Source: Macrocystis pyrifera (taxonomy: Eukaryota > Sar > Phaeophyceae > Laminariales > Laminariaceae). Taken from it: a DNA stretch of 64,000 nucleotides. The notes under the pieces were generated by a model that made no database searches, was not told the DNA's origin, and was given only the letters and a program-made list of their open reading frames with translations. Location: contig JASSKH010000003.1 in assembly GCA_031763025.1 (NCBI GenBank), forward strand, positions 9,003,078 to 9,067,077, in the 5' to 3' direction. Positions 22,915 through 56,037 of the stretch are shown in pieces. How positions within the stretch are numbered: the stretch's first letter is position 1; each line of letters begins with the position of its first letter. Both the position numbers and the translations under genes were made by a program.

Positions 22915-24187
22915 TGGCAGGTAGGAGACGAGGCTTGGATATGTGATAGTGGTGCGTCTACTCACATGACACCCTCCGCTGACTGCATGATCAATTATAG
23001 AGAATGCAACTTGACTCTCCGAATCGCTGACGGGTCCACCCGAGCGATCGAAGGTTACGGTGACGTGAGTGTTGTCTTTCGGTCCGGAAACGGTCCCGTG
23101 CAAGTGCTGCTTACGAACGTTGCGCACGTGCCGGATCTCGGCCACCACTTATTTTCCCTGCCCACTCTGGTCAAAAACGGCCATACTTTCGAAGGGCGCC
23201 CCACGGGGGTTGTAATCAGGCTCAAGTCGGAGCGTTCGATCGTGTTCCCGTTGAGTGGGACTCTCTACAGCCTATACGGCTACCGGGTCGACCGCAGTTG
23301 TGGGGAAAATGCCTGTGCTGTACTCGCCCCGGGACAACTGCCCAACGAGTCTGCAATCAACATCAACGATTTCCACTGCGCTGCTGGACACTCCCACGAG
23401 GTACTACTTCGCAAGACCGTGGAGCAGCAGGGGATTGTCCTCGGGGGAAAGCTGCTGGAGTGCAAGGGTGCTCCATGGCAAAGGGTCTCCGCAAAGGTAT
23501 CAAGCAGTCCACACACACACGAGCAGATAAGAAGATCGGGAGGGTTTTTGTGGATTTGAGTGGACCAAAGGTGGTAGAGTCTCTCGGGCGGAAGCGGTAT
23601 ACTCTCATCGTGCGCGACGATCTTTCACGGTATATGTGGGTGTACTTTATGCGCCACAAGTCGGACGCCGCGGAAATGTTCGAGCTGTTCCTTGCGGATT
23701 CTCGTGCAGACGGTGTCCCTTCTACGGTGGTAATCGTCCGATCTGATGGGGGTGGTGAATTCCGCGGGGGAAAGTTTTGCGACCTGTGTAGATCACGAGG
23801 GATCAAGCAGGAATTCACGACGGCCGACAGTCCCCAATACAATGGAGTAGCAGAGCGCGCGCTAGGTTTGATAGAGACGGCCGCAATGGCGGGCCGAATC
23901 CAGGCTCAAGAGCTTTTTCCTGGCGCGAAACTCCCGGCCACGCCGTCGTTGTGGGTGGAAGCGTCCCACTGGGCGTGTGACGCCTTGAACCGCACAGCAA
24001 CAACAGCTAACCCGCAGAGCAAGTCGCCACATGAGATGTGACATGGTAGCCCCCCCCCGGTAGTACTACTGCCCTTTCCTCAAGTCTGGCTATTGCAAGG
24101 TGAAGAGGGAAAACAAGTCACAGGCGAAAGCGCAAAGAGTGCTTATACCTCGGCCCTGCAACAAACTACCCCGGTGATTCAGTACGA
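22915..24187 (+). pseudogene. Copia A protease-integrase, broken
   Basis: Protease: catalytic DSGAS at about 22945 within AWICDSGASTHMT. Integrase: zinc site H-x4-H (FHCAAGH, about 23371) with C-x2-C (ECKGC), then the catalytic triad in FVDLSGP, VRSDGGGEF and GVAERALGL, all present. Breaks: a -1 shift at the GGG around 23468, splitting the C-x2-C; a TGA at 24039-24041 replacing the expected Trp of HEMW; and a -1 shift near 24150 (YLGPATNYPGDS resumes in the third frame). Each is one base from an open frame. The integrase would insert the cDNA. Confidence 0.88.
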
Positions 24188-26550
24188 GTGCTGACAAAGA
24201 ACCGCATTGTGCTAATAACGCGCAATGTCACCTGGCAACGCGTGTCGTCTGCACCACCTGTACCTGCCCAGGCGAATGACTCCCTGTCTACGGAAAAGGG
24301 GGGGTCAGAGGTAGACGACGTGAGCACGTCGGATCGAGGTGGTGGGGGGGGGGGGGTGGTGGGTGAGCTGGACAACGGTCTGGCTCACTTGAACGACCTC
24401 GACGTGACGTGGGGTTTTGACCTGGACGCGTTTATACAGGAGCGCGCACAGCCGGCACCTGCCGCCGGCGAGGCCGGCGGCGAAACACCCGAGACGATGG
24501 GTTCGTCTCAAGGGGGCGCCGTGGACGCCTCCTCGGTCCCGACAGGGAGGGCCGAAACAGCCGAGACGATGGATTCGTCTCAAGGGGGCGCCGTGGACGC
24601 CTCCTCGGTCCCAACAGGGAGGGCCGGAAACGACCCGGGCGCAGCATCAGCCTCCGACACCGGGCAAGGGGACGGTGAGGATCCCCCCGCGGTCCTGTCG
24701 GGGAGGCCAGCACACGAGCTCAGCAGCTTGGGCCGGCTCCCCCCGACTGTACGGGGCCGGACCCGGGGTCAAAGCCAACGCCTGGAGAGTGAACCTGCTG
24801 TGCACCAGATAAGGATGGATGAAAGGACCGCAGACGCGCTGCTTGCGGCAGCGTACGAGTCGTGGACGAAGCCTGGGAGTATGCTGGATTGTACGCCCTG
24901 GACGACGGAGGACGCAGTGGCTTTGATGGCCGGAGGACCTGCTGTGGAGAACAAAGGGGAGTTGAGCGTTTGCATGCCGAGTGGTTTCCCGGAAGACGTA
25001 GAACCGCCCCCACAGTCCGTAGCAGATATAGAGCGTTCTCAATACAAAGCGGCGTGGCACGAGGCCATGAAAATTGAGTTGGACGGTCACAAAACGACCG
25101 GTACTTACGAAGCCGCGACACCGCCAAAGGGCGGAAACCTGTAGGTGCGAAGTGGGTTTTTACCTACAAGACGGATAAGGATGGCTTGATAGTAAAGACA
25201 AAGGCCAGACTTGTGGCTAAGGGTTTTAGCCAGGTGCAGGATGTAGATTATTTTCAAACGTTTGCACCGACTCCCTCGTCAGCGTCAGTTAAAATTCTGG
25301 CGGCTGTTGCAAATGAACATGGTTTAAAGATTTTTCATCTAGGCGTCGCACAAGCTTTTGTTCGCGCGAAACTCGACGCCGAGATATACATGAAACTGCC
25401 CGGTGGGTGTGGTGACATGTCAGGAAAGATCGTCCGCCTAAACAGATCACTGTATGGTCTAAAGCAGAGCGGACGGCAGTGGGCCGGATTTTTGGTAGAG
25501 ACCGTGGTAGAGTACGGAATGGAGCAGTGTAAGTCTGACCCGTGTGTGTTTCGCATGGTTGTGGACGGCAAGGTAGAACTGATCATGGCCGTTCATGTAG
25601 ATGACATCGTGATCGCAGGATCGGGTGAGACATGTAGAGATTTCCATGCCGCGCTAGCTATGAAATTTCCCACGAATAACCTTGGCGAACTGACTTGGTA
25701 CACTGGTTGTGCTTTCAAACGCGACTGGGAACTGGGGACATTGGAGATTACGCAGAAGGCGTTCATTGAGAGCATGCTGAATCGTTTTGGTGTTAACTCA
25801 TCCTCTGATATCCCCGCGACCCCCTGTGTGGAACTAGGTCCAAGAGAGGAGGGCGAACTTGGAGGAGACTGGCCGTACAGGGAGGCTGTGGGCAGCTTGA
25901 TGTGGCTGTCGACCATGACGAGGCCGGACATCTCGAACGCTGTGCGTGCTGTGGCGCGCCACTCCCACAACCCAACGGAGAGGCACTGGAAGGCAGTTTT
26001 GAAGATTATGGCTTACCTCCACGGGACCAGGTTTATGGGATTGACTTTTGTACGGGGCTCGGGTTTGGATTTGACTGCGTATAGTGATGCTGATTATGCG
26101 GATAAGTCGAACGATAGGCGCTCGGTATCGGGGACGGTAATTACCCTAGGGGGTGCGGCCGTCAGTTGGGCAAGTAGTACGCAGAGGTGTGTTACGTTGT
26201 CGACAGCAGAAGCAGAGTATGTCGCCCTGGGTAAAGGGGTGAAGGAAGCTTTGTTTACGGGCGCGGTGTTGTCGTTTATCTGTCCAGAGCTAAGCGGATC
26301 ATGTGTCCGGGTTTTCGAGGATAACCAGGGGGCCGTAGCGTTGGCTGAAAACCCTCTTAGTTCTGCTCGGAGTAAGCATATCGACGTGCGTTTTCATTTT
26401 GTGAGAGAGCTACTTCGTGCTAAGAAGATCGACATTCAGTTCGTAGCTTCGGAAGAGCAGCACGCGGATATTTTGACGAAATCCCTTGCTGCGACCCCTT
26501 TTAAGTCTCATCGTAGGTTCTTGTTGAATCTGCCTTTGGAGGGTGAGTGA
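24188..26550 (+). pseudogene. Copia A reverse transcriptase-RNase H
   Basis: 24188-25144 is the integrase C-terminus and an acidic, Ser/Thr-rich linker with a tandem repeat (ETMDSSQGGAVDASSVPTGR) and a 13-G run at 24344. A -1 shift near 25130 precedes RT (RKPVGAKWVFTYKTDKDG). RT motifs: ARLVAKGFSQ, RSLYGLKQSGRQW and catalytic VHVDD. The first palm Asp, expected in H-x-D-V-x-x-AF, is Gly (FHLGVAQAF; GGC at 25342-25344), which should abolish polymerisation. RNase H follows with DADYA, STAEAEY, EDNQGA and HADILTK. TGA at 26548. Located in the virus-like particle in active relatives. Confidence 0.92.
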
Positions 26551-33042: not shown

Positions 33043-33838
33043 TACAGAATAGACGCCAACGCAAAAAGATCGAGGCCTCGGCAGCAGCTGCAGCAGCTAA
33101 GGCCGGTGGGACCGGCAGCAGGCGCACGCCTGTCCTTGTCCAGACAAGGCCGCCCCAGCAGCAAGACATGGGACAGATTTTCGAGAATAGGATTTTGGAC
33201 AATCTGCGCCCGTATGGCCAGACTGCGGGGGAGGACGACGACCAGGGGGGCGGGGGAAAAGGCAAGAGACGCGCGTACGGTATGACGTCGGCGCGTCTAT
33301 GTCAGGACATCATTGAGATCGGGACCCCGCTCAAGCACGTCGGCCCCATTATCATGAAGTTCTGTACGCGGGCACCGGCGTGCAGCTCGACGAGGTGTTG
33401 CTTCGACCTTTCATGCCAAGAACCCGAACCCAAGGGACCCATAAAGAATACGTTCTCCATCCCCACGTTGACGCAAGGTGGAAGACATGCAAGAAGCACC
33501 CAATGCGGAACGCAAATATGATTTCTTCCGCGAGAACGGCAACGGATCGCGCTGCATCGCCACCTTCCATCCCCTCTTTCTCCCGCTGCTGCGCTGCCTG
33601 TTGCTGCTGCTGCTGACCCTGGCTTACACATGACTGCTATTTTTTAATAATTCTTGATCTCCAGAAATGCTCCATGCTTTTGGGGTTTGGTCTCTAATGA
33701 AAAAAAATGATGACGGCTGCTGTCAATTTTCTTCGTTGTGATTGGTAAAAAAAAACGAAATTCATCTCTGCGCACAACGGTCAATGGACACTGATATTGC
33801 TGGTACCGACTATTAAAAGGACCTCAGGCGCACCCCTA
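33043..33838 (+). pseudogene. Captured coding fragment inserted in repeat U
   Basis: Absent from the same position in copy U1 (about 12110-12118). The first frame is open from the junction: LQNRRQRKKIEASAAAAAAK, then a MGQIFENRILDNLRPYG region with an acidic/Gly linker, then SARLCQDIIEIGTPLKHVGP. A shift near 33360 continues it as YAGTGVQLDEVLLRPFMP and EYVLHPHVDARWK; a further frame reads DFFRENGNGSRC to a TGA near 33630. The rest is non-coding, with an A9 run near 33750. No family recognised. It looks like part of a host or element gene carried in by transposition or retroposition; insertion ends are approximate. Confidence 0.5.
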
Positions 33839-34833
33839 ACTGTAGTTCGTTGTTGTTGTCATCGGCATTGGCCGATGCACGTACCTTCGGCAGTGTGTGA
33901 CCCATTATCCCCGGATCGATATATTCGTCGTCTCGAGTACAAGAACAAATCGTTCGTGATTATTCGTACAGCAGCGTTCGTCCAAACATACTTACAGTAG
34001 TAGTAGTTCTCATTGCTGCGTGTCCTACATTGCTGACCGATAGATCCTAGAGCCAGCTGAAAGGGGGTCAATACACGTACGTTTTTCTCGCGTGGCATTC
34101 TACAGCAGTATTGCTGTATATGCAGTCGTACCTGTACAAGCTACTCTACTGCTGTAGGAGATCGTGCAAAGTGTTTTAGATTGCGTAAAAATCGCGCTAC
34201 GTACCAGTTGTTCGAGCACTGTAATAATAGCATAGACGTCTATACTGCGCGCGATAAAATTTTCGTTTCCGAGGTTCGACTCGCACCATCCACCCTTTTT
34301 TTTTAAAGTCACTTTTTGTTGCTTTTTTTGTACCAATAATAAGACCACAACAGTACTATTATTATTAATAATAATACATTCGTCCACACCTTGCTTTTGT
34401 GAACGTGTACGTAGTATGATATATATATTTTTTATTTTGTTATAAATTTTGAAATACGTCAGCTGTGAGTTCGACTGATTAAATATTAATATAATAAGTT
34501 GTGTGTGTTTATTTTCCAACTTTGGCTTTTTTTGTACCGACCAGTACATTCATCCACCTTGCTTTTCTGAACGTATAATATGATGTTGTAGATACTTGTG
34601 TGTTTTTTTCCAAGGATAAGAGTTTGGGCGCGCTCACGTGTGGCGTGCGTTCACACCTCAACATTTCACAGCTACTCCTAATAGTTGGGAGTAAAGCAAA
34701 GTATGTTCGATAGAATACTGCTCTTATTATCGTAGGTATAATACTTCGTACACTCGCGGTATTTCGGGGTTTTCGTACTCGAGATACTGCGAGTTCTCGC
34801 AGTATTTTGAGGTTCTCTGTCAATATGCTACTT
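33839..34833 (+). repeat. Dispersed repeat U, second part of copy U2
   Basis: Continues the repeat from GTTCGTTGTTG through GATAGATCCTAGAGCCAGC, the B-box-like GGTTCGACTCGCACC (34276) and the GAGGTTCTCTG block. Its last 11 bp (34823-34833) are the target-site duplication of the R2-like element. Confidence 0.8.
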
Positions 34834-34926
34834 GGACCCACGTTTGCGAGTAGTCAGCGGGGGTGCCGGGCAGCGCTCGGCGGTGGCAGAGCTCATAGTA
34901 GAGTAGGGCCTGGACCTCCCCCATCG

Positions 34927-36809
34927 ATGCCACCGGGCGCGACAGCGGGTTCACGGGACTCAAGAACGCCCCCCCTAACCCTCCCCCAGAGAGAAACATG
35001 TGAGAGACGCCGTCAGGAAAGCAGCGATCCCATGGAAGTTGACTCTGTTCAGAGGAATATACCTCGAGAGGATAATCCACCATGTAGGGATATGGCTAGC
35101 ATGGGGACAAGAGGGGGTCACCGCCAATCCAACAGCGGTACCACATCGGTCAGAGGTTCCAACGGGGGGCGGCGACACCACTAAGATCGTCCACAGGTGC
35201 GGGAACGGCCATAGGTGAAGGACGACGGGACACGACGAGTGCACCTGGAGAGGGGCTTATCTCCTCCAGAACGAGGGCGCGCACCCGAATAGCTGCTGCC
35301 ATCAGCGCACAATCATCGGATGGGGGGGGGGGAAGGCAGCTCTCCACTGAGCCAGTCCATAGAGCGTCCCCTCAACAGCCAACGATGACGCGGATGGCGC
35401 CGTTGGCAACGTCTTTGCAGCCAGCGCTTCCGTCGTTGCCGGAAGAATCCCCAAATACGCCTGGTTCAGTACAGTTGCCGACAACGGAATCGGGGCCACC
35501 CCTGACGACCCCACTTTCCCTTGGGGGGTCAAGAACACTCGTCATAGAAGGTTTGCCGGTATCGGGAGAGGTACCATCCCAGACACCAGGGCCTGCACAG
35601 CTACCGCCACCGCAGCACCAACAATGGCCGTGGCCTACCAGGCCGCCGGCAGCGCAACCGACGGTGCTCGTGTCGCGTCCACTACATCCTCCATCAAGGG
35701 GGCAATCTCAACTGACGATACAGCTTCCTCCAACCATATCGGTGCCCATATCGACCCCCTCGACGGCACTGCTACCGTCGCCAGATACCTCTCCGTCCAC
35801 CAGATCACCCCGAGCGTCATCGCCAAGCCCGTCACCGTCGCCGTCGCAGCCATTGTCACCAGTGCTACCGACAGCTGGCCTCCCTTCGACAGCGGGATCA
35901 CTTTTAACACTGGGTTTGGCCCTTGCGGTCGAAACACCATCACAGGTAGCGGTCAGGACGACACAATCGGCGCTACCAAGGCCGTCACGGCCGACTTCCA
36001 CACGGATGTTGGAAGGGAGTAGTTCGACTCTCGCGCCGACGTTCGAATTGCCCCCGTCGCCGCCACGGACACCTTCGCCGTCGCCCGTAGAAGATCAGCT
36101 TCGGGAGGAAGTCACGGAGGACTGTAGTGTCTGCTACGAGACCTTGGCCGCCCCGATGGTTCTTTTAGGGAGATGCCCCCATCGACTGCATCTTCCATGC
36201 TACGCCGCACTCAGAGTTAGGGCGGGGGGCAACCTAAGGTGTCCGGCGTGCAGAGCGACCGTAACGATCAACGAGGCCGATGCGATGGCGCTACGTCAAC
36301 ACAGCAATGAAGTTATGGTAGAGGCGCTAACGATCGCACAGCAAGAGATTCCGGCTAACGGAGGAGCGAAAGCACCAACAGGGGCCGCAGGAGGTGAGAG
36401 GAGGCGGCGAGTGATATGCAGCATTTGTCACTGTCTGGTTGAGGCGACGGCAAGCGTACAAGTGTCTTGTTTGTGCGAGGTACACCGCCGTTGTGCTCTA
36501 GGATTCTGCGAAGACGCAATGCCCCGAGCCAGGATTCTCGATGGGGCACACCAAGTCACGTGCCCAAATCCAGCCCTGCACGAGGAGCATCAAGAGGTGG
36601 ATCTACACCTCCTCCTGCAACAGATTCGAGCTCTCGGCAGATCGGTGGACACGGCAGAAGAAAGCGCCATAAGAGACAGGATCACCGCTGCCGAGCTCCG
36701 CCTCATGGGAAGGGCCCAAACTATTCCAGAAACGATGGATTTATCAAGGAGCGCCACAGAGCGAGGTGAGGAGGACATACAAGGAGAATGGCGTGGCACG
36801 ACCCCATAG
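34927..36809 (+). pseudogene. R2-like element, N-terminal region with two RING modules
   Basis: The first in-frame ATG after the element start is 34927 (MPPGATAGSRDS). This frame ends at 35184; a -1 step at about 35180 beside a G-run continues open (RSSTGAGTAIGEG...) into a long Pro/Ser/Thr linker. A canonical RING-H2 follows at 36123-36251: C-x2-C-x13-C-x-H-x2-H-x2-C-x13-C-x2-C, starting CSVC. A second, variant RING lies at 36417-36590 (CSIC ... CLCEVHRRC ... C-x5-H). RING-H2 domains usually bind E2 enzymes in ubiquitin ligases; such a role here is inference. The segment ends at a TAG (36807-36809) that could be a mutated CAG. Confidence 0.75.
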
Positions 36810-37403
36810 CCGCAGGCGCAAGCGCCGTGTGGGGCCTGTAACGGGCACATGGAGGATGACCAGCGGTTTGCTTTTGGTGGCTGGATCGTTCACAGGAGAT
36901 GTGCCACAGAAAGCGTGGAGGGGGCAGACGGCAGGGGAGACGATCGGTTTGGGGTGGCTATCCCAGGAGGGACAGGAGTTCCACTTCGTAGAACGTTCCG
37001 GCTCACGGTAATAGTGCCCAGGCTCCACCTGAGGTACGACCGCACTACCGCAGAGGGTGAGCATCAACAGAGACAGTTGGAAACACTGTGGAGATCACTG
37101 GAGTCGGGTATCGAGGAGGCCGCGAGCCAGGTTGAAGAGAATCAGGGCGTGGAAGGGGGGTTAGAGGAGTCCGACGATTTATGGTGCACATATTGCGGTT
37201 GGCCTTTCGATAGTTCTGGTGGGGAGTCAGAAGACAACTATGTTCGCGTACCCGTTCCGTGCACCCACGGAGACTTTGTGCACGCCCGCTGGATGCTGGA
37301 CCGCGCGGAACACCTCGCGAGAGGGCATACAGACCCTAGGCCCTGCGTTGCGTGTCGCTCGGCGTGGCCGGGAGGAAGCCGACCTCCCCACCCGCAGAGC
37401 TAG
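36810..37403 (+). pseudogene. R2-like element, middle region: two further zinc modules
   Basis: Same frame as the preceding segment, right after the TAG. Begins with a half-RING-like site, C-x2-C-x17-H-x2-C (CGAC...HRRC, 36828-36906), then a charged helix-prone stretch. RING copy 4a at 37185-37355 reads CTYC ... CTHGDFVHARW ... C-x2-C; its sixth ligand is Trp instead of Cys, unlike copy 4b. After RPPHP the frame must step -1 (near 37390) to reach AELARGLP, which aligns with copy 4b; otherwise it stops at 37401. Confidence 0.72.
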
Positions 37404-40400
37404 CTAGAGGATTGCCCATGAATGAGCACGGTGGAAGGTGGGTGGCGGTGAGGGGCGCCCTGCAGTTCGCCGCCCACGTTCATCGGGGCAACTCCGAACC
37501 GGAGCCAGCCAGCTACGTTACAACTGGCGCTTTCGGCACGTTTGAGCTCATGTTACGTGCCCATGGTGGGAGCCCGACCTCCTCGTTCTTGCTGTGCTCC
37601 CCGTTTTGCGATGCGTTGGACATGCCTCAAGGTGCATACCTCGATTTCCCCCGACCGAGGGGATGGGAAGCGGCGGTCGGCCATTACCGTACGCTGTTCG
37701 CGGCATATGCCATTCAACCGCAGGACGTCTTGCGCCGACTTCCAAATCAAAAACTCTACATCGGACCACATGTCCAAGAGTATCTGGTAAGTCTGGACGC
37801 CGAATGCGAAGAACGCTTAGCGAGGTGGACCCTCGGGGTCCAACGTGCGTTGGAAACGGGTGAAGCGCTTCCTCCCTTTTTGGCGGCGGTGGCAACCACG
37901 TCGGAGAGAACGGACAGGGCGCCGGAGAGTGACCAGTTACAAATGGGACCGATTGGACAGGGAGGTGACACTAGTAGTGAAGTAGAAAGGCGTCAGAATG
38001 TGGGGAACAGGGGCGCCTCTCCCTGCACGTACTGCGGGCGGGCTCTAGCGGAATCTACCGGAGAATTGGCGGTAGACACTTTATGGGCATCTTTTCCGTG
38101 CCCCCACGGAGAGCAAGTGCATGCTCGCTGCATGCTGGATCGTGCGGAATGCCTCGCGAGAGGGCAAGCAGATCCACAGCCATGCGCTGCATGTCGCTCT
38201 GAATGGCCGGCAAGAAACCGGCCGCTCCATCCAGCGGAGCTGGCAGAGGACCTTCCAAGGCCACGGTTAGGGGGAAGGTGGTCTGCGGTAGGAGGAGCCT
38301 TGCAGTTCGCAGAACTCTTGGAGGAGGACGGCCCCCGGCTGGATCCGGCCAGTTACGTCACGACTGGTTCCCACAATACCTGGGAAGAGATGGTGAGGAC
38401 CCATGGAGGAAGTCCAACCTCTTCGTTTCTGTTGTGCACCCTGTTCAGCGATGCTCTCAGCCTGCCCCAGCGAGCCTACCTCGACTTCCCCCGACCGAGG
38501 GAATGGCGAGCGGCAGCCGGCCACTACCGTAAGGTTTTCGCCGCGTACGGTATCCGACCGCAGGACATCATGCTCCGGCTCCAGAATCGGAGGATCTACA
38601 TCCTACCCCGTGTCCAAGAGTTTCTGGCGGGCCTCGACTCCGCATGGGAAGACCGGTTGACGAGGTGGACCCTAGGGGTTCGAAACGCGCTGGAAGCAGG
38701 GGAGACGCTGCCTCCTTTTCCGACGGAGGCGGGGACCCTAGGGTCCATAAACGTGTTGGAGCCAAGGAACGCGCTGCCTCCTTCTCCGACGGCGGTAGGG
38801 GCAACAGCGGAAGGAACGAACTCGGCACTGGAGAGCGGCCCGTTAGCAGCGAGGGTGACGCTGTCAGTAGGTGAGGCTTCGGTGTCTGAAGGCGACCCGC
38901 GAGTGAGGCGGCAGGCAGAGCCAGGAGATGCTGGTTATGTTGCCGCGGGGATCTTTCTCACTGCCGGAGATGGAGATACCACGGCACCGGGACATTTGTC
39001 CCCCCTCCCGAGACAGCCCACTGCCACTCCAACGACGGCGGGAGCCACAACGGAAGGGACGGAACCGGTGCGGGCGAGCAACCCTTTGGCAGCGGGAGTG
39101 ACACCACCGGAAGGTGAAGCCCCATCGCCAGAAGGCGAACCGGGGGTAAGAGGGCAGGCGGAGCCAGGACATGTTGCTTCGGTAGCCCCGGAGAACCCCC
39201 ACACCGCAAGGGACAGGGAGGCCACGACGCCGGGACGCTCGCCCCCCCCTCTGACACAGCCCCGTATCACCCCGTCAACAACTGAAGCAACTGCGTCCAC
39301 GCCCACCGGCGCAGTAGAGGGTGGGGAGAGCGCAAGAGGTAGGCGAGGTCGACCGCGCGGATCTGGAAGGGGATCACGAGCGGCGATAAGTGGAAGAGGG
39401 GTCGCCACGAGCCGGGGGAGAATCTCTCGACCCGGGAGCGGCGAGCCGCCCATGTCCCCTGGCGAAGAAGGGAGTGGCGAAGGAGAAAGTGAATTTCGCG
39501 GGGAAGGAGGGGACGGAGAAGGAGGAGGTCCAGCACCAGAGAGCGTATCGCAACTTCACGCTTTCATTGCAGACGACCAAAGCGGTACGACCTGCGGGGG
39601 TTGTAGAGCAACGATTGCTTGGGGACACCGAGTGGTGGGGTTACCTTGTGGACGTCAACATGCAATGCATGCGAGGTGCGTGGTGAATGCAGTCAGGCGA
39701 GGCGGGGCGCAGGTGCCGCTGCTCTGCGGCGCTAGGGGATGTACAGCTCGTCATGGAAGCCGGGAAGCACTAGAAGCGGCAGTTCAGGCAGACCCCGGAC
39801 TGAGCGTTACGGCAGCGGGACTCGGAAGGAGACCTGACGACCTTGACGATGGGCGCCGGGATGGGCTCCTCTATCCCTGGGACCAAAGTACGTTGGGGAT
39901 CGCAGGACCACTCGACGATGTTCCCCTTGAGGACCTCCAACAACGCTTCGTCACTGTTATTAAAGTACAATCAAGATTGGCTACTGCTCACGCCAAGCTT
40001 ATCACCCACGTGCTTGGCCTCCTTAACCACGCCCTGGGAGAGCATCGCCCACACAGACAGTCGGAGACGCCGACCTCACTCTTAAGGTCAATCAAGCTTT
40101 GGTACATCCTCCCGGTTCTACTGCACTCGCCAGATGGACGAGTGAAGCGGCGCGAAAGGTTTGCGTCTGTCGAACGCGGTGATCTCACCTTTCTACTCCC
40201 GTGGTTAATGGAGTATACCCGTCGAACATCGAGAAGACAGAGGGGTCAAGCTCGCGAAGTGACGGACGCTGATCTGTTCAAGAGGGCGTCTTCAGCATGC
40301 CGCCATCCAGGGGGGGTGACAGTCGCAGCACGCAGCCTCCTCGCGGAACCACGCGCGCCGGGAAACGAGGAAACGTGGGAGCGAGTGAAAGCAAAGTTCC

Positions 40401-41218
40401 CGGAGGAGGATCAGACCGCCGTCTCCGAAGCAGCAGCGGCAGCGGTGGCTACAAGTTCCTCCGACCCGGAGGAAGGGAGGGGGCCCAAGTGGCGCGCGGA
40501 GGAAGAATTCGACCCACAGGTGGCCCTCGAGGTCATCAACTCTCGCAACGCGCTATCAGGCGCAGGAAGCGATGGCTTGCGCTTTTCGCACCTGCAGTCA
40601 ATTATCAGGACTGGCATTGGGCGCGAACAATTTGGGGCTGGCATTGAAGCCTTCTTGAGGAGAATTATCGACGATCCAAACGCCTTTCCGCCGGAATTCT
40701 GGCAGCTTTTCCTGCAGTCCAACCTCACTGCCTTGGGTGAAAAATGCCGCCCCGTCTACGTAGGGATGACATGGAGACGCCCTCTCACAGCCGGGACCAT
40801 GCGGCAGTGGCGACCACGACTGGAGGAGACCAACCGCGAGGCGAGACAGTTTGGAGTCGGAGTACGAGGGGGGGTGGAGCAGGTAGCGCTACACGCGCGG
40901 GTACACCACGAGGCAAAAAACTGGTTGATTCTCACAGACTGCTCCAACGCCTTCAACACGGTAAAACGGACGGCTGTGCTTGCAGAGGTAGCCACCTGCG
41001 CGCCTGCGCTTACACCGTTCGTGACAAAGTGTTACGGGGAAAGAACTGCTCCCGTGTTCTTCCAGATGGAATCGGGAGAAAGGCGCAAGATCGAATGCTC
41101 CAGTGGGGTACAGCAAGGGGATGCCATGGGGCCGGCGTTGTTCTGCATGCATCTCTTACCGGTGCTGAAGCGGACCCGAGCGGAGTTCGAGCCAAAAGGA
41201 GTGGAGGCATTCGCTACT
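37388..41218 (+). pseudogene. R2-like element, duplicated RING block, linker and RT fingers/palm
   Basis: A novel domain of about 150 residues (GGRW.AV.GALQFA ... SYVTTG ... GGSPTSSFLLC ... YLDFPRPR) occurs twice, at 37430-37885 and 38270-38735, each behind a RING copy. RING 4b at 38024-38194 has all eight ligands (CTYC ... CPHGEQVHARC ... CAAC). Another RING-like module lies at 39593-39742 (CGGC ... CGRQHAMHARC ... C-x4-C). A basic GRRGRPRGSGRG segment at about 39330 looks like an AT-hook. RT begins near 40500: GAGSDGLRFSHL, KCRPVYVGMTWRRPLT, palm motif ILTDCSNAFNTVKR (Asp codon 40937) and SSGVQQGDAMGPALF. The frame ends TAG at 41219, inside the catalytic motif. Confidence 0.85.
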
Positions 41219-43083
41219 TAGACGACATTAGCATCGGAATGATGGAAATCACACCCGATACTGTGGAAGTTGTACCTTTCCTACAGCGTGAGCTGTCCAA
41301 CATTGGCATTGCAATCAACCCGAGCAAAACGGTTGCCTTGCCCCCGAAGGGGCACGTACCTACGCCGGAACAAATCGCCCTTCTTGGAGGTATTGGAGTC
41401 CGCATCGCGGAACGGGGTGGAGTAAAGGTGGTTGGGGTTCCCGTCGGCACCGACGAATACGCGATGGAGAGCGCAATGGAGATAGTTCACAACGGGGGAG
41501 CGGAACAACTCACGCGGATGCTACCGCGTATGCCAGACAAGCAAGCAGCCAACTTGATCGCCACCGGCTCTATGGTGCAACGGACCACCTATATAGAAAG
41601 AGTGATAGACCCGGAAATGTCCCTGCCCGCATGCCTAAAAGCAGATGGAAACGCGATGTGGATGCTGGAGAAATTGCTTGATCTCCCGGGGACAGCAGAA
41701 GAAACGTCGTTCTTCGAGAATGGATGCCCAACAAATCAGCTGGTCTTGCAGCCCTACCAACAGGCGCAGGCAAGACTGACCACGGGGGCCGGAGGGTTTG
41801 GACTGGCGTCGGCTGAAGCCCAGAGGATGTCAGCGTCCGTCGGAAGCTTGGTAGCGACGGTGCCGGAGGTGCTTGCTGACCTGTCCGGCGCTATCGGGGA
41901 CAAAGTCCGGTGGGAGCTCCCCGATTCAGACCTCGTCCGGCGCATCTGGAACAGCATCAGGGACCTCCGCGATATACATGGGGTTTCAGAAGAAGCCATG
42001 GCGAACATCGTGCCGGAAAGCTGGCGGGATAGAGCATTTCGAGGAGAACAAGAGGACTCAGGGTTGTCAGTTGCGGAAGTATTGCCGGCACATGATGTCG
42101 AATCCATCAGCTCCAGCAAAGCGCAGCATAGACTGGGGAAGCTGGTAAACCGAGTCCGTTATGAGAGATACGTTGCTTCACTGGACCAGCTCCCCGTCGG
42201 CAACCCACGAGAAGAGAAAGAGTCGAGGGGTCTGGCCAAGGCCCGGCAACGGAGCCAATCGGGACCAGGGGCTACCGCATTCCTAAGGGCGAGACCTGTC
42301 GACGCGGCCAGAGTTATCCCACCGTCAGAGTTTGTGGCTGCGGGAAGGCGGTTTCTGGAGATTGAGGAGTTCCTAGCGGCAAGGTGCCCCTGCTGCGGTG
42401 CAGCGGAGGCTACTACACGACATGCACGATTATGTCATCGATCGGGCGCGCAAGTAAACCAGCACCAGCCTCTGGTGCACGCGCTCTCCCGCACCTTCAA
42501 GAGGATGTCCATCCGCCACCAAATAGAAAGCGGGGCCCCTTTCCACGCAAACAGGGATCTCCGCATGGACATCGTCATCGAGGCAGGAGGACTCCGAGAT
42601 GTTACGGCATCAGAGTATCGCAATCAAGCGATACTCCTCGACGTCACGTATGCGGATCCACAGGCGGGGATCCACATGCGGGCAGGCAGCGCTGACCGAG
42701 ACGGATCAGCTGCTTCCACTTCTGAGGCGCGCAAGCGCAGTCACTACGCTCGTCCGGGACAGATGTCTTTCGACGAGCGCAGCTACAAACTCGCCACCCT
42801 CGCGGTGGAAAGCTTTGGACGCCTCGGAAAGGAAGGCAGCGATCTAATTGATCAGTTGGCGACAAGCATAGTTGGAGGGACGGACGGATCGTCCCGAGCG
42901 CGGAAGGGCGTCTGCAAAGAACGCCTCTTCCAGATCATCTCCGTGACTACACAGGTCGCAATTTCACGTAGAGTACATAGATATAAACTTGCCCTGAGGG
43001 ACCGCCAGGCTGCTAGGGGAAGGGAGGAAGAAGCCGGAGGAATGCGGCCAATGACATGGGGATGGAACGTCGATGAGGAATAG
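41215..43083 (+). pseudogene. R2-like element, RT catalytic motif to restriction-like endonuclease
   Basis: In the next frame the catalytic YLDDI is at 41215-41229, overlapping the previous frame by one base, so a single -1 step (or restoring one base) joins motif B to motif C. The thumb follows (NPSKTVALPPKGH, VVGVPVGTDEYA), then a long helical region (QARLTTGAGGFGLAS). A C-x2-C-x8-H-x3-C finger lies at 42385-42438 (CPCC ... HARLC). The endonuclease core is at about 42561-42660 (LRMDIVIEAGG ... ILLDVTYADP), matching the PD-(D/E)xK pattern used by R2-type elements to nick their target. TAG at 43081. Confidence 0.87.
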
Positions 43084-43247
43084 AATATATTGTACTGGTA
43101 GCTAAAATGAAATGTTGTGGGGCATGGGAATTTGGAAACGACAGGAAGAGAAGTGTATGAGGGATACTACTGATTTAAGGAAGGATATTTGGTTAATATA
43201 GGTACGGCATCTACGCTATTTTGTCAGAAGGCAAGAAATATATATAT

Positions 43248-44313
43248 ATATGCTACTTCGTATACTTTCGGGCTCGCACTATTAAAAATATAAAATAATA
43301 ATGCGGGGTTCGCTACTGCTGCTAGCGTGGATACCCCATGTTGTGCTTCAAGTGTCTCGGGGTTCTGTACCGCGGGTACTACTACAAGTATTCTAGTCTA
43401 CACAGTAGTAGCAGTATTTCGTCCGTTGGTAGTGTTCGTACTGCTGCTTCTGCAAAAGACTCAGTACTCGCAGTTATGAAATACCCTCAATATGTCCAGT
43501 ATACTTCGAGTGAGTATCATGTATACTTGAACCGTATGTGCACCGCGTCGACAATTAATTCTCAGGCCCAGCGTTCGGCACCAAACACACAAAGGTAATC
43601 CCACACGAGTGGGAGTTGGAGCAAACCACTTTCGCCGGAGACAACTTGAGTACGTAAAGCAGTCTGGCAGTATTTCGAGATACGCTTTAGCAAGGAATAT
43701 ATATGTATATACTGCGAATACTCTAAGTATCTCGAGGTTCTGTACTGCGCATATTGCCCTTTTACTCCAAGTATTTCGTGTTTCGATACTACTGCGGGTA
43801 CATATTTTCTTCCTGTATTCTCGGGTTCGGTACTGCTCACACTCTCATTACTCTCAGTATTTGGGCCTTCTCAGTGCTGGCAATATTTTTGCCGCCAGTA
43901 CTCCAATACTCTCACAATGCTCGGACTACGATTTGTTCTCGCCGAGCATTTATCTGTGAAACTTTGATGTTACCCTGAGCACCAAGAAACATTTATTTTG
44001 GGGAACATATATATACATTGTACCAGTATGTATGTGCTGTACCTTACTCAACCGGTCACAAAGTATTATGGCGCAACCTCGACTTCGCGCTACTTTTTTG
44101 TATGAATTAATCGCCGCGAGTCGGCTGGATCAAATTATTATCCACTTATCGCTACCCTATTTTATATTATTGTACAAATGGTGCCACACTAATTCCGCGA
44201 ACAGCAGTATATAATAGTCTGTCCTCAAAAATATGTAGTGTGTGTCTTCACGTTAAAATGATGAGTGGATGCAGGTACTACTTCTACACAACAAGTATGC
44301 AGGGTTGCATACG
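43248..44313 (+). repeat. Dispersed repeat U, third part of copy U2
   Basis: Starts with the second ATATGCTACTT, continues as TACTTTCGGGCTCGCAC... and follows U1 from about 13590 to 14640 (GGATACCCC...GTTGTGCTTC; CACACGAGTGGGAGTTGGAG). It breaks at GCATACG, where copia B is inserted; the last five bases (ATACG) are the left target site. Confidence 0.85.
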
Positions 44314-44794
44314 TGTTATGGAATGTTAGCACATGGCCATGTATGAGTCAATGTTCAAGTAGCACCGCTCTTGTGTCGTAGATCATAGTCTATGTACCGT
44401 TTCGGCTTGTAACGTATATTATGCGGAGGAACAGCAGCCGTATCGTCCCTGCTCGTAGGACTGAGTATCGCAGCCGTATCGTCTCTGCTCGTAGGACCGA
44501 GTATCTCACTCTCTGATGTGACCTTTATCCGGATCGTGATGGTATCCTAGCTGCCTATCCATCTCTGGAAGCTGCCGTCGTCTGGACTCTTGCATTCTGC
44601 ATTCTCTGTGGAGTACATCTGTGTGTGTTGGCCATCTAAGCGCCAGTGTTTACGTGTTATCACGTCTTCTTCTCTCTACAGCACGGGAGTATCTTACTCC
44701 CCGGGCCATCGCTAGCCCGGTGTCATACCTCGGGTAACACCGAGGACACAGCCTCTGTCTACATTGCCAGGGTACAACGCAATTATCCATAATA
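44314..44794 (+). repeat. Copia B 5' LTR (481 bp)
   Basis: Starts TGTTATGG and ends CCATAATA, a short inverted pair. Contains an internal tandem duplication of about 35 bp (GCCGTATCGTC.CTGCTCGTAGGAC.GAGTATC). It is followed by GGTTAATGAGC, a weak resemblance to the usual initiator-Met primer site. Confidence 0.85.
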
Positions 44795-45677: not shown

Positions 45678-46844
45678 ATGACAGAATCGCCTTACACTGC
45701 GTTGAAAAAGACGCTCGAAACCGTTGGTCAATGCAAAGATCAACGGAACGACCGCGAATGGGCGGAAAAGTTTCGAATGGCGGTGGGTCTTCATTCGCAG
45801 GACCTGCTGAAGATTCTTGACGGAGAATCGTGCCCCAGTGGCACTGGGATGGACGCTGCTACAGCAGCTTCAAACTGGAAAAGTCGGAACAACCAGTTGT
45901 TCTCCCTCATTTACTTCTCCACAGTTGAATCCGCTAACATTACCACGAAGCCTTTTCAAGGGAAGACTGGGGGTGAAATGGGAAATGGAGCTGCGGCTTG
46001 CGCGGCCCTGAAGGAACGCTTCGCCGGAAACACAAAAGAATCCCGGCGAGCCCTCAGGGAGCAACTCCACTCTGCCAAGCTCCGACACGGTCAGAACGTC
46101 ATCGACTTCCTGGCAACCATGGACGACTTAAAACTTCGGCTTGAAGATATGGGTGAGACCACGCCGGAGGAGACGTTCGAGGACTTAGTGTTAAATGCTC
46201 TCGTTCACTCGTCGGACTACAGCTTCATGCGGGACATGCATTACCGGCAACCGTTTCCAAATGTCAAGGAAATAAAGCGAACCGCTGTGAATTACTTTAT
46301 CGATGCACAATCGAGGAAGTCGTCGGGGCCCGCAGTCTCCGGCCGTGGTGCGGCAATGGCCGCGACCAGCAAAGACCGGTGCCACAACTGCAACGAGTAC
46401 GGACACTTCCAGCGAGATTGCCCTAAGCCAGCCAAGAAGAGCCGGTCGAAGTCGGGAAAGTCGCGGCGGAAGGACAAGGGCAAGAAGGCCGGCGACCCCT
46501 CTCCAAAGTGGTGCAGCTATCACAAGACTACCAGCCACAGCGACAACGAGTGCAAGGCTCAGCGAGAGATCCAGTCGCTGACTGCACGCCTGGCGATGCT
46601 GCAGTCTCCGGGGCAAGGCAGTTTCGCTCATGTCGGGAGCGCACATCCGGCCGCTTTTCCACCACAACCGTCGGGTGCCGCTGGTTTCGCTCATGTCGGG
46701 AGCGCTCACCCCGCCGCTCTTCCTCAACCACAGTCGGGGGCTGTTGGTTTCGCTCATGTCGGGAGCGCACCCGTGGCTCCGCCTCCTCCGCAGACAAAAA
46801 CGGTTTTAGCTACTCGTTCACCGCGATGGGAGTGCCCCTGCTAG
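45678..46844 (+). CDS. gag: Copia B gag
   Basis: Intact 388-codon ORF from ATG 45678 (MTESPYTALKKTLETVG). Gag core: helical segments, including LKERFAGNTKESRRALREQL and the DFLATMDDLKLRL region. A CCHC zinc knuckle CHNCNEYGHFQRDC (about 46378) is followed by a Lys/Arg-rich stretch (KSRSKSGKSRRKDKGKK) and a second Cys/His motif CSYHKTTSHSDNEC typical of copia gags. The C-terminus has three repeats of FAHVGSAHPAA. It would assemble virus-like particles and bind element RNA. It overlaps pol, which lies in the -1 frame. This is the only retroelement gene in the window that looks fully open. Confidence 0.9.
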   Translation: MTESPYTALKKTLETVGQCKDQRNDREWAEKFRMAVGLHSQDLLKILDGESCPSGTGMDAATAASNWKSRNNQLFSLIYFSTVESANITTKPFQGKTGGEMGNGAAACAALKERFAGNTKESRRALREQLHSAKLRHGQNVIDFLATMDDLKLRLEDMGETTPEETFEDLVLNALVHSSDYSFMRDMHYRQPFPNVKEIKRTAVNYFIDAQSRKSSGPAVSGRGAAMAATSKDRCHNCNEYGHFQRDCPKPAKKSRSKSGKSRRKDKGKKAGDPSPKWCSYHKTTSHSDNECKAQREIQSLTARLAMLQSPGQGSFAHVGSAHPAAFPPQPSGAAGFAHVGSAHPAALPQPQSGAVGFAHVGSAPVAPPPPQTKTVLATRSPRWECPC

Positions 46845-49110
46845 CGGCGGCCACGCTTTCTCATGGGGCTCCCACCGCGGAATCCGGGGCTGAATCGGGG
46901 GAACTTGCGTCTGCTCAGGCGGCATCACAACCGACCTACCGTCTACCCGATGGGGTTTTTCGAGCGCTCATGGCGAGCACTCCTGACCTGTCAGGTGAAG
47001 GTGGGCTTCGTACCGACGGCACCCACATTGAGCTATTGGTGGACAGCGGGGCATCATTCAACTTCGTCGATCCGGAGCTGACCCCGGGACTGCTAGCCTC
47101 AATGCGGGACTATGAACCTCTTCGGGTTCCCCACCAGATCGTCGCAGCTGGAAAGCACATCCTGTACGGGGTAGCTGCAGGCACCGTCAACGGCACCATT
47201 ACCGATGATAGTGGGAACAACCAGGATTTCTCCTTTCGTGCAATCATCGTCCCTGGGCTGGGAACGAACCTGTTTTCCGTCTCCATGGCCATGGTGGAGG
47301 GGATGGCTGCACTGTTCTACCCGGAGAAACCGAGGTTCGAAAAGGGCGACCTCGTTGTGCCGATGAAGACTCTAGGCGTCGACGCAACGACCGGACAAAT
47401 CATGTGCTCCATCGCTGTCGCGATCGAAAACCGTGCTGGTACCTCCGTGAAGCCTAGCGGTGCTGCCTTAAAGGTGGTTTCTGCTGACCTGTGGCACCGT
47501 CGCATGGGGCATGCCAACCGCAACAGCATGGACGTTCTTCGGAAGATGCCGCACAGCGGTGTTGAGTACAACGGTGACCTGACGCCGTGCGACGTCTGCC
47601 CATTCGGCAAGAGTGAGCAGCAACCCCACCCGAAACAAGCGTCGTATGACGTCCAGCGGCCGTTTGAACATGTCTCTGTTGACACCATGGGACCGATCAA
47701 CCCTCCGGCACTGGGCGGCTACACCTACGTCACCAAGTTTGTTGATCAGCTGACGAAGTGGAAGGAGATTTACCTCATCAAGAGCAAGACACACACCATC
47801 GACTCCCTCGTGCTGTTCAACAAGGCCGTCGTGATTCTGTCCGGAGGGCGTTTAGTCCGCCTGAGAGGGGACAAAGGTACGGAGTTTACGAGTGAGGAGT
47901 TCCGCCAGTACTGTCTAAACATCGGCGTCAAGTTGGAGTTTGCTTCTACCAATACCCCTCAGCAGATCGGCGCAAACGAGCGGGCAGGTCGAACGCTTGC
48001 TGGTATCGTGCGCTGTTTGCTTGCTGATTCGGGTCTCCCGAGCTTTCTCTGGGGGGAGTTGATGCTGACTGCAGTCTACCTGAGCAACCGGGTCCCACAT
48101 GCGGCGTTGAGCAACGGTACGCCCTACAAGGCACTCTACGGCAACGATGCTTACCTCGGGAACAATCGAGTTATCGGGGCTAGGTCGTTTGTACACGTAG
48201 AGACCCACACCAAGAAATTGGAACCGCGTGCTTGGGAAGGACGCCTGGTTGGATATAACACAGACAGCAAGTCTTACCGGGTCTACAATCCAGCGACGAA
48301 ACGTGTCAGAGAGAGTCGAAATGTTGTCTTCATTGAGACGCCCTCTGCACTGCCTCGCGTGGAGGTCAGTGGTTTCGACAACAGCAAGTTCACGTACGAC
48401 GAAAGTGACGACTTGGTAAGGGATGTGCGTGAATACACGTCTAATCAAGATATCGGTTCGCCTTCTCCTAACCTGGACGCTACAGAGCCGTTAGTGACCG
48501 ACTTTTTGGAACAAATCCGTGATGTCACCGATCGCGATATTGGCGTTAGCCCTGTTGCTCCTACCCCGCCTGCTTCGCCTGGGGGAGTGAGCCCTTCCGC
48601 TTCGCCATCGGGATCTACGCCGTCTGGTGCTACGCCTGGTGGTTCTGCGCGTGGTGGTTCTTCGCGTGGAGGTTCTTCGCGTGGTGGTTCTTCGCGTGGT
48701 GGTTCTTCACGTGGTGGTTCTGCGTCGCGCGGAGGTCGCGCCATTACACCGGCCGTGGCCAGATCTGCCTCAAGCCAACCTAACGCCAGAACACTTAGCG
48801 AACTGAGACGGCTCGGCTTTGCGTACATCACGAAGGGGGAGTGCCAGGACGTAGCTCACAAGAACGGCATGTCTAGATTCGTGGAATACGCGTATGCTGT
48901 ACAGGCCATGCAGCCGGGAGTCCCCAAGTCATATGCTGAAGCCATGAAGCTTCCAGACGCTAAGTTTTGGGGAGCTGCCGCGGACAAAGAAATGGCCAGT
49001 CTGGACGAACTAGGAGTGTACAAGCTGGTACCGCGATCATCTGTTCCTCCGGGACAGAAAGTCATCAACTCCAGGTGGGTTCTGAAGCGTAAAGCTGATA
49101 ACTCATACAA
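46800..49110 (+). pseudogene. Copia B protease-integrase, RT truncated
   Basis: Open from at least 46508 in the -1 frame relative to gag; homology-like sequence starts near 46800 (TAMGVPLLAAATLSHG). Protease: LLVDSGASFNFVD (about 47037). Integrase: zinc site WHRRMGHAN ... CDVC, catalytic residues in VSVDTMGP, LRGDKGTEF and GANERAGRT, all present. A linker holds a GGSSR tandem (about 48650-48720). RT starts (SRWVLKRKADNSYKA) and is cut at 49110; the palm and RNase H are deleted, and the frame runs on into the LTR to a stop at 49459. Cannot retrotranspose alone; a relative could supply RT. Confidence 0.9.
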
Positions 49111-49461
49111 AGCCGTATCGTCCCTGCTCGTAGGACTGAGTATCGCAGCCGTATCGTCTCTGCTCGTAGGACCGAGTATCTCACTCTCTGATGTGACCTT
49201 TATCCGGATCGTGATGGTATCCTTGCTGCCTATCCATCTCTGGAAGCTGCCGTCGTCTGGACTCTTGCATTCTCTGTGGAGTACATCTGTGTGTGTTGGC
49301 CATCTAAGCGCCAGTGTTTACGTGTTATCACGTCTTCTTCTCTCTACAGCACGGGAGTATCTTACTCCCGGGCCATCGCTAGCCCGGTGTCATATCTCGG
49401 GTAACACCGAGGACACAGCCTCTGTCTACATTGCCAGGGTACAACGCAATTATCCATAATA
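49111..49461 (+). repeat. Copia B 3' LTR, 5'-truncated (351 bp)
   Basis: Matches 44436-44794 of the 5' LTR, with a few small differences (a CATTCTG duplication is present only in the left copy). The first 122 bp of LTR were lost with RT-RNase H in one deletion. Confidence 0.9.
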
Positions 49462-53959: not shown

Positions 53960-54637
53960 CTAAGCATCCCCGAAAGTCCCAGCTCCCTCGAGTCCGGCAA
54001 TCTCCGTCTCCATTGCATGGGACCAGTTCGCATGGTATTGCGAGAGCATCGCCTCCTGGTAGGTCGTGGGTTCCGAGAGTTGTCCCGCGTCACATGTTGG
54101 CAGAGCAGGGGCGGGTTGGTTGGGCGGGCGCTGGTTGAAAAGTGCGTGGTCAGCTGGTTGCGATGTACCAGTAGACGCCTGGTGGTACGCCCTCGTCCTC
54201 GCGCGCGTCCACCCCGGTTGGAGAAGCTCGTTGTCCGGGGGACCCTCGTCGTCCTCGATCTGAGGGTTCTCGGCCCCCGGTGGGAATGACGGTGACATCA
54301 CCCCCGGCGTCGGCGGCATCTCCGGTGGCGCCGGCGTCATCACCGGCGGCATCCCCACTTGAAGCGGCGCCTTCGTCATCGCCCATGTCCGAGCGCGCGT
54401 CCGCCCCAGTTGGAAGAGCTCATTATCCCGGGGACCCTCATCGTCCTCGACGTGATGGTTCTCGGCCCCAGGTGGGGATGACGGTGACGTCACCCCCGGC
54501 GGCGGCGGCGGCACCCCCGGCGTCGGCGTCGACGGTGGCGGCACTTCCGGTGGCGCTGGCGTCATCGCCGGCGTCGGCGGTACCGCCGGTGGTGCCGGTG
54601 ACATCATCGGTGGTATCCCCGGTGACACAGTCGCCAT
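53960..54637 (-). pseudogene. Copia C Pro-rich linker between integrase and RT
   Basis: About 225 codons of Pro/Thr-rich sequence with an internal duplication: GAENHHVEDDEGPRDNELFQ and GAENPQIEDDEGPPDNELLQ, each followed by a TRAR motif. The conserved pre-RT segment TYQEAMLSQYHANWSHAMET comes before a TAG at 53960-53962 in frame with RT. Linkers of this kind vary widely in copia elements. Confidence 0.75.
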
Positions 54638-55650
54638 CTCCGGTGGTAAATACCTGATGTGCAGATCGGCCTCTCACGGCTCCGCCACCGAGTCCTTCCT
54701 CACCTGAGGCGCAGCCTCGATGATCGGCTTGCGCTCCACCTCCCAGGTGACGTCCCGCGAGTTGCTCGTACGCCCGCATGCCGTGACCACCTTGACGCAG
54801 TCGCGCGGATGGTTTCTCCCCCTGTTGAGGTAAAAAACACCGTTCGGCCTTGGGGTCAGACTTGTGGGTGCGGTGGACACGGTGGAATCCGGGCTGCATG
54901 AACGCGAGTGTGTTGGGCGGCGGCAGTGTCCCAAAAAATGCCTCGTGCGGCGACTTGAAATGGGCGTTCGCCGACGTCGCCGTGGTGTTCAGGCAGTCGT
55001 TCATGTAGATGGCTGCTTTCACCCAGTAGCGGTCCAGGTTCGGGAGCTGCCCGGGGAACAGCCGGGGGGCCTCGAGGCAAGCGGCCATACCGCCTTCCTG
55101 GATGAGGCCGAGTCCACGTTCGACCACACCGTTGTGTTTCGGTCCGTCGACCCCGGTGTCCTCGTGTCGGATTTTCTCATTGGCGCATAAGTGTGCGAAA
55201 AGTGCGTTCACGAACTCTGTACCGTTGTCCGTCCGGAAACACTCGACGTCTCGGCCGACGTCAGCCAGGAATTTTCGGGTCGCCGCGGTCACGTCGGCGG
55301 CGCTCTTGCTCTTGAGGGGGTATAGCCATCCCATGCGTGTCGCGTCATCCTTGAACAGGATCAGGTACAGAGTCCCCCCAGCAGACGCGATTTTCCTGGG
55401 GCCGGCAAGGACAACAAAAACGCGCTGCAGGGGGAGTGCCTTCCGAGACGATGTAGTCGTAGGTATAGACGCACGCCTGCCTTTCGCCTGCACACATCCA
55501 CTGCAAGTGACCAGAGTACCAGTGAGCTTGACGCCTTGCTGCTTGGCCGTCTCACGCAAAAGGCCCTCGTGGGCGTGGGCGTTGCACACGTGAAAGACGT
55601 TAATATCCACCTCCTTGAAACGTCTAATGCCGGGGACGAGCACGGCAGCA
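54438..55650 (-). pseudogene. Copia C integrase, catalytic Asp lost
   Basis: The zinc site FHVCNAHAHEGLL (H-x4-H) with C-x2-C (CSGC) is in place. The catalytic core has RTDNGTEF and GVVERGLGL, but the first Asp, normally in VDLAGP, is Val (FVVLAGP; codon at 55410-55412, GTC instead of GAC). KSPHEAFFG and ALMP-like C-terminal parts continue until a frame change near 54850. It could not catalyse strand transfer as read. Confidence 0.9.
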
Positions 55651-55779
55651 GCAATCGCCGGGCGGAACGCGGGGGGGAGCGGGGGAAGGCATTCTTCCGG
55701 GGGATTAGCTGACGATGGCGCTGGCTCACTACGTTCCGGCACTGTCGCAGGGTGTGTGTGAGGGGTTGCTACCGCTATC

Positions 55780-56037
55780 ATTGGTTCTATCGCTACCGGG
55801 GGGTCTACCACTACCATCACCCCCCGGCGACAGCGGCATAGAAGATATTCCCGGCGTCCTCACCGGTTGTAACGTCACAGGCACCGGCGAATGGGGGGGG
55901 GGGGGGGGGGGGTTGCAAAACCGTTGTACCATCCATCGCTACCGGCGGGCCTACCGCTACCACCACCCCCCGCGACAGCGGCATGTCAGATACTTCCGGC
56001 GTCCTCATCGGGTGTACCGTCATAGGCACCGGTGCAT

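Follow-up and report, generated by a model that had tools for sequence, protein, structure and literature searches.

Among non-long-terminal-repeat (non-LTR) retrotransposons with a restriction-like endonuclease (RLE), R2 places N-terminal zinc modules, a reverse transcriptase (RT), a CCHC knuckle and an endonuclease, in that order, in a single open reading frame (ORF), according to the accessible part of PMC5678591. Utopia, R2 and R2-like elements mostly carry one to three N-terminal fingers, with possibly four in one ctenophore R2, as far as the available sections of PMC4640811, PMC13188248 and PMC7650587 report. The BLAG elements of Blattella germanica are R2-like, have no fixed target and vary in zinc finger number (PMC7650587, available in part), and some nematode members of the NeSL/Utopia group have an extra N-terminal domain of the ubiquitin-like pathway, a Ulp1-like protease carried by nematode NeSL and by Utopia-1_TSP (PMC4640811, available in part), which sets a precedent for ubiquitin-family additions in the RLE class. 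Here we describe a locus of the brown alga Macrocystis pyrifera at positions 34834–43247 of a 64,000-nucleotide stretch (the window; contig JASSKH010000003.1, positions 9,003,078–9,067,077) of assembly GCA_031763025.1 (537,376,219 bases, 223 contigs). It is a decayed 8.4-kb copy of a non-LTR retrotransposon of the long interspersed nuclear element (LINE) type from a multi-copy family, in which N-terminal zinc modules, one of them a convincing RING-H2 by its sequence, are part of one giant protein with the RT.

The element shares with R2 the single ORF and the succession of N-terminal zinc modules, RT, CCHC knuckle and endonuclease-like C-terminus. It differs from R2 in its N-terminal half, which has RING-H2 and other zinc modules and matches neither C2H2 nor Myb in Pfam, in length (~2,970 residues versus 1,169 and 1,390 for R2 chains 9nl3 and 9dou), in its dispersed insertion and in a YLDD motif where the aligned R2 chains have FADD. 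Like BLAG, it is R2-like without a fixed target; unlike it, BLAG has one to three fingers, and RING is not described for them in the accessible part of PMC7650587. NeSL and Utopia share its RLE class, but their extra domain is a protease rather than a RING, and Utopia has one to three N-terminal zinc finger motifs and targets the U2 snRNA gene (PMC4640811, available in part).

The fusion was seen directly in another copy of the same genome, C209, of a subfamily that we call B, the window copy belonging to subfamily A. C209 is a single uninterrupted frame of 3,002 codons containing all six zinc modules (M1–M6), an AT-hook, the RT, the CCHC knuckle and the endonuclease-like C-terminus; the zinc modules therefore belong to the RT protein, and the recurrence of all six in one frame argues that they are not chance clusters. 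The match of C209 to two other B copies starts at about codon 29, followed by an ATG at codon 31, so that the element encodes ~2,970 of the residues; as the similarity between those two copies extends further upstream, C209 may be 5′-shortened, and its start codon is tentative. Among the matches listed, an M6/pre-RT match lay downstream on the same strand within 8 kb at at least 56 of 76 M1–M2 places (30 of 36 with M1–M2 identity of at least 80%, 21 of 26 with 66–79% and 5 of 14 below), upstream at none of the 76 and on the other strand at 2 of the 76. A 3,891-codon frame in C219 was set aside, as it spans a stretch of N and a simple-repeat expansion that reaches into M5; at this locus (L044) the in-frame repeat expansion replaces the first part of M5, and the first ligand pair is not the family's own.

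An initial annotation of the window had proposed that one protein of a retroelement joins an N-terminal half of zinc modules to an RT, a CCHC knuckle and an endonuclease-like C-terminus, and this is supported. Codon arithmetic on the frames also places the six Cys/His clusters at the coordinates first given, M3 is the half-site that it was said to be, and the proposed span matches the interval between two direct repeats. The window copy itself is interrupted by one in-frame stop and by frame changes; its features are as follows.

34823–34833, no strand: 5′ target-site duplication ATATGCTACTT, repeated at 43248–43258.
34834–43247, + strand: whole non-LTR element copy, decayed, with direct repeats at both ends and a 3′ end common to independent copies to ~43235; LTRs, sought as direct repeats of at least 60 nt at the element ends, were not found.
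34927–35184, + strand: start of the coding region, likely at ATG 34927, within the first ORF piece (34714–35184; ORF list); a similar segment was seen by eye in the C209 frame.
35100–36809, + strand: open frame piece 1, with a Pro/Ser-rich N-terminus, M1 and M2 (ORF list, Pfam, dN/dS).
36123–36251, + strand: M1, RING-H2 (C3H2C3) with a CPxCR end; Pfam RING families under cut-off, RING-type PDB matches, 8 of 8 ligands kept between A and B.
36417–36590, + strand: M2, Cys/His module of RING-like order with Cys as fourth ligand and His as last; no Pfam match, 8 of 8 ligands, weak hhalign signal.
36810–37403, + strand: open frame piece 2, with M3 and M4 (ORF list, dN/dS).
36828–36906, + strand: M3, half-site CxxC ... 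HxxC; 4 of 4 ligands, dN/dS 0.13.
37185–37355, + strand: M4, putative zinc module with one Cys replaced by Trp in the window copy; paralogous to M5, 7 of 8 ligands.
37340–41221, + strand: open frame piece 3, with the M4 extension, the M5 unit, a linker, M6 and the first half of the RT (ORF list, Pfam, dN/dS).
37395–37913, + strand: conserved domain after M4, ends approximate; dN/dS 0.19, no Pfam domain match, helical only in a low-confidence model.
38024–38194, + strand: M5, putative zinc module paralogous to M4; hhalign M4 versus M5 99.8%, DNA repeat, 8 of 8 ligands.
38219–38700, + strand: conserved domain after M5, paralogous to the domain after M4, ends approximate; dN/dS 0.17, DNA repeat 37560–37859 / 38400–38699.
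39338–39382, + strand: AT-hook-like basic segment RGRPRGSGRG, shared by the A and B copies that were compared.
39593–39742, + strand: M6, probable RING-H2-like module; zf-RING_2 under cut-off in C209 and window, 8 of 8 ligands, 3 of 200 shuffles.
40469–41520, + strand: RT, ends approximate, crossing a frame change, with motif A at ~40937 and YLDD at 41215–41226; RVT_1, best PDB matches R2 and marginal.
40741–43083, + strand: open frame piece 4, with the second half of the RT, thumb, CCHC and endonuclease-like C-terminus (ORF list, Pfam, copy alignment).
42385–42435, + strand: CCHC knuckle, CPCC ... H ... C, unchanged across four aligned copies.
42565–42650, + strand: candidate RLE core, RMDIVI ... 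LLD-T, a motif found by eye with acidic residues invariant in four copies; no PDB match.
43248–43258, no strand: 3′ target-site duplication, second occurrence of ATATGCTACTT, which occurs twice within the window.

M1 has the ligand spacing C-x2-C-x13-C-x-H-x2-H-x2-C-x13-C-x2-C. In C209 it matched zf-RING_2 at E 1.7e-5, and 12 of the 13 Pfam families listed for it are RING types by name. In a PDB search all 24 distinct sequences at E ≤0.1 were proteins named as or known to be RING-type, mostly named E3 ubiquitin ligases (among them AMFR, DTX1, RNF168 and Arkadia). M1 resembles these ligases in ligand order, CPxCR end and sequence, and differs from them in being embedded in a retrotransposon polyprotein. 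A hydrophobic residue between Cys1 and Cys2, Pro after Cys7 and Arg after Cys8, which are typical of active E3 RINGs, were present together in 10 of 10 ligand-intact copies; of the 20 copies in which M1 could be aligned, 20, 17 and 17 have the respective residue.

The initial annotation had read the N-terminal half as an array of RING-type modules, and that description survives for part of it. By sequence M1 is firm and M6 probably RING-like (zf-RING_2 E 5.1e-4 and 20.7 bits in C209, cut-off 27.3, and E 0.023 in the window; 3 of 200 Cys/His-keeping shuffles aligned as well with the two RINGs found with M1). M2, which had no Pfam match, is weakly RING-like, with 5 and 12 of 200 such shuffles scoring as high in hhalign. 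First-round hhalign values were partly circular, the reference stretches coming from the searches with M1 and M6 themselves; the shuffle test crossed the references over for these two modules and so avoided the circularity. M4 and M5 had been described as a homologous RING-H2-like pair. They are paralogues (hhalign probability 99.8%), and each forms with the conserved domain of 160–175 residues that follows it a duplicated DNA unit of 74–78% identity at a spacing of 839–840; neither following domain had a Pfam domain match. RING-H2 likeness is unproven for this pair, and we treat both as putative zinc modules. M4 of the window copy lacks one ligand.

Selection has kept the modules, and the N-terminal half is on that account used. 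By Nei–Gojobori counting of window pieces against C209, the ratio of nonsynonymous to synonymous rates (dN/dS) was 0.108 for M1, 0.09 for M2, 0.13 for M3, 0.199 for M4 and 0.194 for M5, compared with 0.054 for the RT, 0.068 for the CCHC and endonuclease region, 0.127 from M6 to the RT, 0.37–0.85 for linkers and 0.595 for the Pro/Ser-rich N-terminus; silent sites are near saturation between A and B, and saturated in M6, and absolute ratios are rough. The pooled nonsynonymous proportion (pN) was 0.177 in modules versus 0.319 in linkers, a difference reached by none of 5,000 label shuffles, and the ratio of pN to the synonymous proportion (pS) was 0.268 (bootstrap 0.218–0.325) versus 0.654 (0.573–0.752). 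By hand count, 43 of 44 presumed zinc ligands are identical between A and B, the single change being the Cys-to-Trp replacement in M4 of the window copy, compared with 5 of 11 other module Cys/His and 193 of 299 other module residues. We chose 25 copies for spread, 20 from one search together with L045, L047, L048, the window copy and C209. All eight ligands are retained in 10 of the 20 copies that could be aligned across M1, and in 11 of the 22 that could be aligned across M2. Ligands are missing from the remaining 10 M1 copies, several of which have stops or gaps there. These copies are not independent, as the window copy and L045 represent one insertion and C209, L047 and L048 are identical in M1.

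Several results weigh against reading the element as an RLE-class retrotransposon with an E2-recruiting RING. M1 stays below the curated Pfam cut-offs, at best 25.4 versus 27.3 bits in C209 and 19 versus 27 in the window. E3 RINGs often have Trp before Cys7, and M1 has Leu at that position. When M1 was aligned by hhalign to a single partial RNF126 stretch, 87 of 200 shuffles scored as high; this comparison is uninformative, and the case for M1 rests on Pfam, PDB and residue conservation. M4 and M5 are indistinguishable from ligand-kept shuffles (34 and 64 of 200 as high in hhalign) and had no RING match in Pfam, so that a RING fold is not shown for them. Single-sequence AlphaFold2 models were poor (mean predicted local distance difference test, pLDDT, 41.0 and 38.9), with pLDDT of ~60 around M1 in a low-confidence model, and a fold search with the first of them, itself of low confidence, returned no match at E ≤0.001. 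As pS was 0.66 in modules versus 0.49 in linkers, part of the pN/pS gap comes from silent sites, and the pN contrast is the safer measure. Finally, the endonuclease was recognized from motifs and had no Pfam match and no PDB match beyond two unrelated ones (E 0.27 and 1.1).

The family is most likely an RLE-class non-LTR retrotransposon, judging from its sequence features. RVT_1 matched the RT of C209 at 57.6 bits (E 1.9e-15, cut-off 29.6) and the broken window pieces at 27.8 and 15.3 bits, under the cut-off. The only retroelement matches of the RT in the PDB were the R2 chains 9nl3 and 9dou (E 0.28 and 0.36 in one search, 0.088 and 0.11 in another), a hint that the RT is R2-related, and a PDB search with a nine-row profile from the RT to the end gave zero matches. 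A C2H2 or Myb domain of the R2 type had no Pfam match at E ≤10 in window pieces 35100–41218 or in C209, with HMMER filters hiding most weak matches; a 28S rDNA site had no Rfam match in the window, and 3′ flanks differ among copies. Site-specific R2 was rejected on these differing flanks. Utopia/NeSL was also rejected, having no peptidase match in the window pieces or C209 to support it, while the U2 snRNA target expected of Utopia had no Rfam match in the window and the flanks differ. The label 'R2-like' of the initial annotation is thus useful as a pointer to the RLE class and fails for R2 proper, because the R2 PDB matches are marginal and the family is dispersed; 'RLE-class, R2-like' fits. 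Viral contigs yielded no relative of the RT and C-terminal region, and prokaryote contigs and plasmids yielded none of the RT; these searches covered the RT half of the protein.

A search with the C-terminal 607 residues of the window copy gave at least 76 rows from 72 scored of 3,169 first-look candidates, falling into groups of ~81–98% and 72–78% identity. The element ends are set by the ATATGCTACTT repeats. A copy in C223 (L045, L010; ~15976398–15987218) has the same end repeats as the window copy and flanks 98.7–98.8% identical to it (window 33759–44581) over at least 1,075 bp upstream and 1,334 bp downstream, and is for these reasons a segmental duplication of the same insertion rather than a separate event. 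Independent copies have a common 3′ end to ~43235 and then diverge, mostly into CATAATAATAAT-like runs; C209 has a 7-bp target-site duplication, and the only target feature common to the copies is AT-rich or AAT-like sequence at the 3′ end. The exact 3′-end pattern with its AAT-like tail matched 357 + 373 = 730 times genome-wide (reversed pattern 0 + 0), likely including 5′-shortened or non-autonomous copies; variants of other subfamilies also fall under the pattern, and comparison with the protein rows is loose.

Ten B loci have stretches 98.6–99.8% identical to C209, which suggests that the family moved recently. A third subfamily (L069 with L052, C222), whose RT parts are 56–73% identical to B, has the order M1, M2, M3, an apparently single M4/M5-type unit, M6 and RT; this probably reflects a duplication of the unit on the line leading to A and B, or loss of one unit from the third subfamily. 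The copy is decayed and has frame changes, and both its M4-type module and its M6 have another residue in place of the first Cys. Some members (L012 and L046 of C206, L032, L038) lie tail to tail, with a reverse-complemented family-like 3′ end soon after the tail, an arrangement that may reflect insertion into older tails or paired insertion. At L041 (C202) and L042 (C138) the 5′ part of C209 matches twice, the second time shifted and at 68–84% identity, which suggests tandem 5′ repeats, perhaps promoter monomers. Elsewhere in the window we observed a different RT open frame at 8794–10053 (RVT_1 E 1.3e-34), probably from another LINE-type element, LTR-element pieces at 21706–26550 (Copia-type gag, integrase, RVT_2) and at 46427–49459 (integrase and pre-integrase), and a further integrase frame from an LTR element at 54438–55859 on the minus strand.

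The anatomy is real and well supported. The reading that we favour, and to which we give an even chance, is that M1 of this RLE-class element is a RING that recruits an E2 ubiquitin-conjugating enzyme and gives the protein ubiquitin-ligase activity in cis. The sequences establish the fusion, its conservation and the RING similarity of M1; zinc binding, E2 binding, ubiquitin transfer, its targets and a benefit to the element are inferred. One giant protein would then do everything. Its C-terminal RT, CCHC knuckle and endonuclease would nick DNA and copy the element RNA at the nick, by analogy with R2 and in keeping with the direct repeats that flank the element. Its N-terminal half would be a selected tool-box of the RING-H2, further zinc modules, two zinc-plus-domain units and the AT-hook, in which M1 would direct its E2 towards host factors of chromatin or silencing, or towards the protein of the element itself, and the AT-hook and remaining modules would serve to bind DNA, RNA or protein partners. 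A more specific version, which we advance tentatively, is that the polyprotein, combining RT, endonuclease and at least one working RING, is itself an E3 ligase that ubiquitinates host chromatin or repair factors at the insertion site, with the zinc-plus-domain units as a new substrate- or partner-binding domain.

The strongest rival, a serious possibility that still falls short of even odds, is that the modules bind nucleic acid in place of the C2H2 and Myb fingers of R2, recognizing target DNA or element RNA and never an E2, the RING appearance of M1 being inherited and repurposed. In R2 and R2-like elements the N-terminal fingers recognize nucleic acid (PMC13188248, PMC7650587), the AT-hook lies in the same half of the protein, and M2, M4 and M5 lack a RING profile match; yet the E3-type residues occur in every ligand-intact M1 among the 20 aligned, M1 matches E3 RINGs, and it is not evident why copies that share no target beyond AT-rich or AAT-like sequence would require many fingers to select one. 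Alternatively, and in our view improbably, the RING may act on the element's own protein, auto-ubiquitination setting its turnover or removing it from the nick after target-primed synthesis and so limiting copy number and damage. The RING in cis with the RT, the very large protein, the many copies and the selection on M1 would suit such a role, but the conservation is explicable without self-limitation. The idea that a separate neighbouring host gene supplies the N-terminal RING part, which the initial annotation had named as a refuting outcome, or that this part is a passive transduced fragment, has only the broken frames of the window copy to suggest it and, like a chance frame, is ruled out by the open frame of C209, the linkage counts and the low dN/dS of the modules, leaving a slender chance that C209 is an assembly artefact.

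Among the matches listed in full-text literature searches that included RING terms, judged by title and start of abstract, none was a RING-bearing RLE-class LINE; Repbase and most subscription papers lay outside this scope, and such an element may be catalogued elsewhere. The single paper that combined 'ring finger' with RLE vocabulary was PMC5678591, where the phrase presumably belongs to the hand image of the RT subdomains. Host ubiquitin ligases are studied as restrainers of LINEs, judging by titles and starts of abstracts, and a LINE with its own RING would, if the favoured reading is true, reverse this picture. It would also be a compact system with DNA nicking, reverse transcription and ubiquitin transfer on one polypeptide, and would extend the ubiquitin-pathway enzymes acquired by RLE-class LINEs beyond the Ulp1-like protease. 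Because the family apparently moved recently, host response and element activity are both open to study. The RING fusion hints at an element that, in the course of its copying, may mark host proteins or itself with ubiquitin.

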